A program made the position numbers and the translations under genes. The notes under the pieces are model-generated. The model was given only the letters and a program-made list of their open reading frames with translations, ran no database searches and was not told where the DNA came from. 64,000 nt of DNA from Lytechinus variegatus (taxonomy: Eukaryota > Echinodermata > Echinoidea > Temnopleuroida > Toxopneustidae), in contig NC_054750.1 of NCBI RefSeq assembly GCF_018143015.1, positions 7,237,501-7,301,500 of the forward strand, in the 5' to 3' direction. Within the stretch, counting starts at the first letter, position 1; every line of letters begins with the position of its first letter. This document shows, piece by piece, positions 11,301 to 14,300 of this stretch.

Positions 11301-14300
11301 AACTCTCACACCCCTGTTAAGTAAAAAATCAAAGCATTTTGTCTTATTTTCTGCCAAAGTCAAAATTCTTAGCCAAAACGGGTAATCCATACCTCCAGCC
11401 GTGAGGGGTGTGGTCTTACCTACACCCATGAAGGGGGTGTATCACCGTGAGGGGTGTGGTCTTACCTGCAACCATGGAGGGGGGGTTGTATCATAGCGAG
11501 GGGTGTGGTCTTACCTACAACCATGGAGGGGGTGTATCACCGTGAGGGGTGTGGTCTTACCTACAACCATGGAGGGGGTGTATCACCGTGAGGGGTGTGG
11601 TCTTACCTACAACCATGGAGGGGGTGTATCACCGTGAGGGGTGTGGTCTTACCTGCAACCATGGAGGGGGGGTTGTATCATAGCGAGGGGTGTGGTCTTA
11701 CCTACAACCATGGAGGGGGTGTATCACCGTGAGGGGTGTGGTCTTACCTACAACCATGGAGGGGGTGTATCACCGTGAGGGGTGTGGTCTTACCTACAAC
11801 CATGGAGGGGGTGTATCACCGTGAGGGGTGTGGTCTTACCTACAACCATGGAGGGGGTGTATCACCGTGAGGGGTGTGGTCTTACCTACAACCATGGAGG
11901 GGGTGTATCACCGTGAGGGGTGTGGTCTCTACATCATAGTACGCTTCTACTGATGATATCCCTATCTCCTCATCAACATCTATTGATCTGGTGCTTGGTA
12001 ACCTCACTCTCTGGGAATCATCCTGGGAGAAAGAATATCAAAGTAGATGAAACAGGGAAAGTGGAAAAAACCATGCTGCAGCAAACAAAGTACCTTCATT
12101 CAGCAACAAATTGATCCACACTGTGCTGCACTCGGTAACACTTCGTAATTCCGAAGGTTCGTAATTCCGAAACACGTAAATTGCCAATACCACGATGTTC
12201 GTTGATCCGAAAATGTGAAAGGGTTCGTTAATACGAACATTGGTGGTGTTATTCCGAAGGTTCGATAATCCGAAAGCAAAATAAGGTTTGATGTTCTGAA
12301 AGTTTGTTAATCCGAAAAGGAAATAAGGTTCGTTGTTCCGAAGGTTGATTAATCCAAAAACAAAATAAGGTTCGTTATTCCAAAGATTTGTTAGTCCGAA
12401 AAAGAAACAAGGTTCGTTAATCATTTCGTTTTCGGACTAACGAACCTTCCCAATTACGAACCTTCGGAATAACGAACCTTCAGAATAACGAAGCTTTGGT
12501 ATTACGAATGTATGCGGCTGCACTCAACCCAGGTGATTTAAATAGGAACCCTGTAGGAATGATTCCTTGAATGCACTGAGCGCCGCTGACAAAGAGGTAG
12601 CTCAAGCTAAAGCCGGGGTAATAATAGTTGTGCTTTGTATCCTCTGGTAAAAATCACTATATAAATCCAGCTACTATTATGATTATCATTACCTAAAAAC
12701 AATTAGAAAATATTATGTTAATTAAAGAAAAGAATTACTTCAGGTTGTGAATTTTTAACAATGAAGGAAGCAGTATTTCCTTTTTAATGTACCTCATCAG
12801 CTTCACCATCCTCATCCTGGCCATCTTGACCACCACCATATTTCCTTGATAGCTGGGTCAAAGTGATGACATCATCCTCATGCTTCCTCTTGACCTTTCC
12901 CCCTCTTGACCTTTCACCTTTACCCCTTCCTCTTGCATCCTTGCCTCCTAAATTAGAACTTGATGTACCCGAAGCCTGATGATAAAAGGGTAATGAGCAG
13001 AGATGTAATTACAATTATATTAATAATTTGGTTATTCACAAAGTACTTAAATCATACACTGCATGGCCTGTATTCTGGACTCAGGGGGCTGTTTCATAAA
13101 GCAGTTCGTAAGTTACGGACTAGTGATCCTTTCTTCGGGTAATAATTACCGCGAATTCTCACTGGCGTTTATTCAGCTTCTGAAAAACGGATCACCATTC
13201 ACTGGTAAAGTTGCTCGTAACTTAAGAACAGCTTTATCAAACACCCACCAGATTCAGTTTAAAAGCTCATCTCTAAATCATGTCACTCATAACTAAAAAT
13301 AACTGAATCATTTTTTCTCGCCAACGTAGCATGATGATTGAGCAAAGTGAACATAAGATTTAACATTAGAACAGATTTACGAATATTGCTCTGCATCATT
13401 ATTACCACAGTCATCATATTTAGTCAGTTATTCCTGAACATGACATACATCCTCACTCCCTAGGGAGTGTTTAATAACAAGAAGTATAAGGAAAGATAAT
13501 AAAATGAAGCACATTGTCAAGGCTTTTCAAGGTTTAATTCAAATGGAAGATCTTCCTTGTCTGTTTTACGCATCATGTTATGACTAGACCGATGATTGTT
13601 GGACACCACAAATTAGCTTGGAAATGATCTTCACAAAAAATATAAGATAGAACAAACTTCATGGATACATTATATGCAGAAGTTCAGTTTGACATTCATA
13701 GCCAACATTTTAGTGCACTGTTATTTCCATGATTTGTGACTTATTCAGGACATTTAAAAGTTCTTCATGAATTTGGATAGGATTTCTATGAGCACCAATT
13801 GCAAACTATAGATGTGGAAATTTTAGTGATGTTTGAATTGTAAAATCTGCAAAAAATAACTTCCAACTCAATGAGCATAATTGAGGAATGATTTTGATGC
13901 ATTTTGAAGGGGGGGGGGGGGGATAATATAAATGGTCAGGATTAATCTGTTGGCAAGGGGGAAATTTTCTTTATCATGCCCTCATCTGACTGACCATATA
14001 TTGCCCCCCCCAAAAAAAAAAAAAAAGATTTTTTTTTTTCTAGCAGACCCCAAATATACAAATGTATTGTTTTTGTGAGAAAATGTCAGATTTATGGTAA
14101 GGACCTGCTAAAAAAATTGATCAACGTACCCAACCCTCCTGTATTAGGCTTGTGCGGGCAACATAACCATTTTATTCTAGGTCTTATGGGAACCAGGTGG
14201 TCTTTGTACAAAGTCCATTGGAACAAGAAACTTAAGTAGTATGGTCCTTGAGAGACTGATATGGCATGAAATAACAAGTTTCAAACTAAGAGAGTTCCTG

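Follow-up and report, generated by a model that had tools for sequence, protein, structure and literature searches.

The human IFI6 gene has been reported to carry a minisatellite that supplies multiple splice donors; according to a passage citing that report, two downstream repeat units serve as donors, which results in three mRNA species. Tandem repeats with splice sites are also described in connection with intron gain. In the Rogers model, as outlined in a passage of PMC4974935, intron gain proceeds by tandem duplication of an AGGT-bearing segment, each unit of which offers both a GT and an AG, without any change in the encoded peptide. The same source presents potato RdRp as a case of tandem-duplication intron gain, in which the duplication crosses an acceptor border, and a passage of PMC3629103 describes intron gain in fission yeast SPOG_01682 and SOCG_00815, with tandem repeats of 24 nt (the cryptic sites in fission yeast are given as AGGC in the passage of PMC3629103, but as AGGT in that of PMC4974935). 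The ratchet points of recursive splicing in Drosophila, according to the part of PMC8605326 that treats them, consist of a juxtaposed acceptor and donor, with cryptic RS-exons of approximately 50 nt and donor competition. In this source they are placed in long introns, e.g. two in the kuz intron of approximately 50 kb.

In the present study we analysed a minisatellite in the ERCC4 (XPF) gene of the sea urchin Lytechinus variegatus, located within a window of 64,000 nt (the whole stretch of DNA that was analysed). The tandem repeat spans an exon end together with its splice donor, and, as in IFI6, minisatellite units offer several splice donors to one exon, those of ERCC4 being predicted from sequence. 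By its anatomy the ERCC4 array would thus belong with the donor-supplying minisatellites. It differs from IFI6 in that its unit of 46 bp is out of frame and brings in an in-frame stop, and in that there are eleven donors. The IFI6 unit is reportedly 12 bp long and hence in frame. The initial annotation regarded a coding-intron border amplified as a minisatellite as unusual; in view of the IFI6 precedent this applies to the out-of-frame unit and to the number of donors rather than to the arrangement as such.

The array also consists of tandem copies of an AG|GT-containing exon segment (11 AGGTAAG borders) and in this respect resembles intron gain by tandem duplication, where the duplicated sequence carries a (proto-)splice site. 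In ERCC4, however, the duplicated AG|GT is already the donor of an existing intron, the copies are added inside that intron and no new intron is needed; moreover, the duplicated border is that of a donor, in contrast to the acceptor border in potato RdRp. The likeness to ratchet points lies in the candidate acceptor AG that adjoins a donor in each unit, on a scale of approximately 50 nt, and possibly in competition among donors. In ERCC4, however, eleven AG|GTAAG stand in tandem within an intron of 949 nt and the strength of the putative acceptor is doubtful: the donor is strong, whereas the acceptor ranks high by a generic matrix and by pyrimidine content, and low by a gene-derived matrix and by T count.

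The gene model was obtained by spliced alignment with the NCBI L. variegatus XPF model (P0001), which was found by protein search; human XPF had been used for a first alignment. The window sequence and the NCBI model are identical at 932 of 941 aligned positions, and the nine differences, which may point to a divergent haplotype, comprise eight substitutions and one extra codon. According to this alignment, the exon bearing the array is the 16th of 24 coding exons, a number that leaves out one zero-length exon as an artefact of the alignment. The join of exons 16 and 17 is matched by human XPF in PDB (PLTIIHPLLGC|SDPYALT; 6sxa, E 8.8e-19), and the NCBI L. variegatus XPF protein (a separate record, known here as protein, without its intron) has HGCRDPYSL, i.e. 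the product that contains zero units.

Several other repeats were detected in and around the gene. The false zero-length exon is caused by a CAG|GTGA at 20479, which lies inside a copy of GCACTCAACCCAGGTGA. Four copies of this sequence are present in the window, at 9101-9117 (-), 12520-12536 (+), 20475-20491 (-) and 54928-54944 (+), three of them exact and one with two mismatches (0.01 expected), and it is probably a dispersed element. Intron 15 contains diverged tandem repeats at 12248-12508 (periods 42, 84 and 16), in which GTTCGTTATTCCGAA-like motifs were recognized by eye in both orientations. A CAT-type triplet repeat (27204-27355, about 49 copies, 74% matches) precedes the start codon of ERCC4 by approximately 370 bp.

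Table 1. Location of the ERCC4 gene and of the components of the minisatellite within the window
Feature	Position	Strand	Remarks
ERCC4/XPF gene	4126..26831	-	ATG at 26831, last codon at 4126, followed by TGA; 24 coding exons, 941 codons
Exon 16	11886..12022	-	137 nt, phase 2 end; acceptor cccag|GA, donor TAG|gtaaga
Intron 16	10937..11885	-	949 nt, 487 nt of them array
Exon 17	10843..10936	-	94 nt; its first base completes the split Arg codon
Whole minisatellite	11399..11928	-	Tandem Repeats Finder: period 46, 11.4 copies, 93% matches; higher-order period 187
Coding copy of the unit	11886..11928	-	Last 43 nt of exon 16; conserved peptide end plus AG
Ten complete intronic units	11420..11885	-	Eight of 46 bp and two of 49 bp; each with GTAAG start and AG end
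5th unit, 49-bp variant	11653..11701	-	GCAG end, longer C tract; followed by donor CAG|GTAAGA
9th unit, 49-bp variant	11466..11514	-	Identical to the 5th unit, 187 bp downstream of it
Partial last unit and eleventh donor	11399..11419	-	From the Tandem Repeats Finder span and the donor pattern

Eleven GTAAGACC donors were identified on the minus strand of the array (11885, 11839, 11793, 11747, 11701, 11652, 11606, 11560, 11514, 11465 and 11419), with spacings of 46, 46, 46, 46, 49, 46, 46, 46, 49 and 46 bp. The core AG|GTAAG is intact in all 11, which agrees with the identical-core donor that the initial annotation had ascribed to each unit. Its definition of the unit as the last 41 nt of exon 16 plus GTAAG also proved correct, the position of exon 16 having been confirmed by the spliced alignment; the alternative wording, last 43 nt plus GTA, denotes the same 46 bases, since the AG is common to both. 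Seven of the ten complete intronic units end with the exact last 43 nt of exon 16, the exceptions being the two 49-bp variants and unit 10, the last complete one, which has two substitutions. The spacing of 187 bp that had been noted between the two variants (units 5 and 9, identical to each other) was confirmed, and Tandem Repeats Finder gives a higher period of 187 bp (2.9 copies, 97% matches); the donors that follow these units, at 11652 and 11465, are separated by the same distance. The earlier figure of about 11 repeats fits the number of donors, but the precise count is one exonic, ten complete intronic and one partial copy. The order of the units (A, AAAB, AAAB, C, partial) points to the duplication of a block of four units (AAAB).

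A 16-nt donor pattern, searched with up to three mismatches, gave 11 matches in the window, all within the array, while none of 100 shuffles reached 11 (maximum 2). The array contains 11 copies of the motif AGGTAAG, and the remainder of the 23.3-kb gene strand three. Tandem arrays are prone to assembly error, and it could be supposed that the true allele carries one, a few or another number of units. However, the array is short (530 bp) and has an ordered structure, with identical variants placed 187 bp apart among uniform units and with a differing last unit, which makes an artefact of this kind very unlikely.

The end of exon 16 encodes the peptide VIHPLHG (535-G541), which is invariant in eight echinoderm XPFs and similar in human XPF. 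It follows that the exon copy gave rise to those in the intron, in line with the derivation of the unit from the exon end that had been proposed. An origin from a dispersed satellite that invaded ERCC4 was ruled out by the confinement of matches within the window to the array and by the conserved coding copy. When 11380-11990 was compared with the whole window by blastn (E 1e-3), all 11 rows fell inside that stretch. With the 46-bp unit (blastn-short, E 1), 14 rows were obtained for the window, and the only two located outside, both 11-base matches with E 0.45, are due to chance. No further copy of the array is present within the 64-kb window.

The units of the array carry a Leu codon (CTC) at a position where the XPF proteins of S. 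purpuratus and Diadema have Ile. This gives a weak hint that the array may postdate the Lytechinus-Strongylocentrotus split, and only a weak one, because the position varies across echinoderms and human (Leu in human, Patiria and Apostichopus; Val, Thr or Ser in Holothuria, Amphiura and Anneissia). The identity of most units, with differences confined to the two 49-bp units, themselves identical, and to the one unit with two substitutions, fits a recent amplification.

Analysis of the predicted products revealed that direct use of donor 1 gives the full-length protein of 941 residues, whereas direct use of any of donors 2-11 brings a TAA into frame, and in all ten cases translation stops after residue 544, with 978-1398 nt between the stop and the final exon junction. 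For one-step splicing, the initial claim that only the first donor gives a full-length protein is thus valid. Nonsense-mediated decay is triggered according to the usual junction rule, and decay of the donor 2-11 transcripts would be expected if sea urchins follow it. The truncated XPF would be devoid of the conserved C-terminal part, which we take to include the nuclease domain.

These premature stops are compatible with the function originally proposed for the array, i.e. a length-tuned poison switch, in which later donors compete with donor 1, transcripts with a premature stop undergo decay and XPF output falls as alleles become longer. The intact state of all the donors argues in the same direction, as do the IFI6 units used as donors (according to the citing passage mentioned above) and the sequence of two donors of the array. 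A matrix derived from ERCC4 gives a score of 8.7 for the standard donors and of 10.8 for the two located after the 49-bp units (leave-one-out scores of the 23 ERCC4 donors range from 1.3 to 12.8, and 0.5% of 1217 background GTs score at least 8.7). The U1 duplex energies are -9.4 kcal/mol for the standard donors and -11.0 kcal/mol for the post-49-bp donors, within a range of -4.6 to -12.6 for ERCC4 donors. By sequence score, donor 1 is matched by eight of the other ten donors and surpassed by two; these two outdo it by U1 pairing as well as by position matrices. Against the switch stands the length of exon 16, which would be 137 nt with donor 1, 183 nt with donor 2 and 229-603 nt with donors 3-11, the last values being above those of all 22 internal exons of ERCC4. 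Since the size range of the internal exons (40-183 nt, n=22) accommodates exon 16 with donor 1 or donor 2 but with none of the others, exon definition would favour donor 1, with donor 2, whose exon would equal the largest internal exon, at the size limit. We consider regulation of ERCC4 by such a switch unlikely.

RNA structure was ruled out as a feature distinguishing donor 1, since neither predicted accessibility nor the local fold sets it apart. The predicted unpaired probability is 0.001 for donor 1, 0.001-0.008 for the other ten and 0.000-0.263 for the ERCC4 donors, and the predicted fold of a 121-nt stretch covering the exon end and unit 1 does not differ from that of shuffled sequence (z -0.05; 94 of 200 shuffles had equal or greater stability). 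No Rfam families were detected in 10500-12600 at the gathering threshold.

The second part of the initial claim, that any later donor gives a premature stop, applies to direct use of these donors, but would not apply to the removal of whole units. Every complete unit starts with GT and ends with AG, and splicing from AG|GT to AG|GT, with the unit AGs as candidate acceptors, would remove whole units and restore the same junction. In a seamless recursive array of this type, units would be removed in blocks, the border would be regenerated and later donors would still give normal mRNA, which would make the array self-buffering. Enumeration of splice paths, in which every AG was allowed as an acceptor and the counts of which are combinatorial and not probabilities, showed that 1024 of 17711 paths yield the identical full-length (zero-unit) mRNA; among the 102 distinct products, one is without a premature stop. 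On the other hand, single units are far shorter than the shortest ERCC4 intron (290 nt), a length that is reached by 10 of the 55 possible intra-array introns.

The measures of strength of the unit AG as an acceptor conflict with one another. By a generic matrix, the AG of the standard unit ranks at the 98th percentile among 1370 AGs. Its pyrimidine content, 12 of 16, equals the median for the real acceptors (n=23), and 4.8% of background AGs attain this value. The standard unit also contains a yUnAy match (CTCAC), the A of which lies 28 nt away from the end of the unit. In contrast, a matrix based on ERCC4's own acceptors (leave-one-out, and resting on few sites, n=23) gives the standard unit a score of -3.0, which corresponds to the 60th percentile of 1319 background AGs and is exceeded by all 23 real acceptors (lowest -2.4). 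By the same matrix the 49-bp variants score 1.0 and the last complete unit -7.0. The T content is 4 of 16, versus 6-12 in real ERCC4 acceptors, and the variant unit has no yUnAy match. The end of exon 16 is not special as an acceptor, because, among the 13 other AG|GT exon ends of ERCC4, four obtain higher scores with the gene-derived matrix. Removal of the array by recursive splicing is, in our opinion, improbable. The same is true of its strictest form, in which each unit of 46-49 bp is a near-complete mini-intron plus ratchet and the array excises itself in whole units, restoring the exon-16 donor. If that form were true, the minisatellite could grow across a coding border with the protein unchanged, its length altering only the rate of productive splicing.

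The array is probably a recent minisatellite that arose by tandem duplication across the exon-donor border, with donor 1 favoured by exon definition and the other donors mostly redundant. The exon end would have been copied together with the 5' splice site by a tandem duplication whose breakpoints lay in exon 16, just before AGACC, and in the donor, after GTA (with a 2-base AG shared), and later expansion, including the duplicated AAAB block, would have led to the ten complete intronic units. The array may have been tolerated, the coding-joined copy being intact and the remainder intronic. Exon definition would mainly pick donor 1 and give normal XPF, while the downstream donors, presumably neutral and mostly redundant, may leak some premature-stop transcripts. 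In agreement with this origin, ERCC4 is intact at 941 codons despite the array. Three observations are less easily reconciled with a preference for donor 1: (i) the two post-49-bp donors pair better with U1 (-11.0 versus -9.4 kcal/mol), (ii) the exon formed with donor 2 (183 nt) is within the size range, and (iii) predicted accessibility gives donor 1 no advantage. It is also known that, when 5' splice sites are duplicated, the intron-proximal copy is sometimes used.

A second tandem duplication was identified in ERCC4, at 3899-4317 (-) (193 bp, 2.2 copies, 91% matches). It copies the coding end of the last exon, including the stop codon, into the sequence that follows the stop, and the first copy is intact. 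In both ERCC4 duplications, the copy joined to upstream sequence is in frame and the extra copies are untranslated in the full-length product. This preservation of the frame by the upstream-joined copy fits tolerance of the array rather than selection for it.

Sea urchins of the genus Lytechinus serve as laboratory animals, and eleven near-identical donors on the same exon end constitute a natural test of the choice among equal 5' splice sites. The array illustrates the birth of a minisatellite across a coding border and its toleration. Should alleles differ in length, and should this length affect the output of ERCC4, the array would act as a natural dial on this repair gene.
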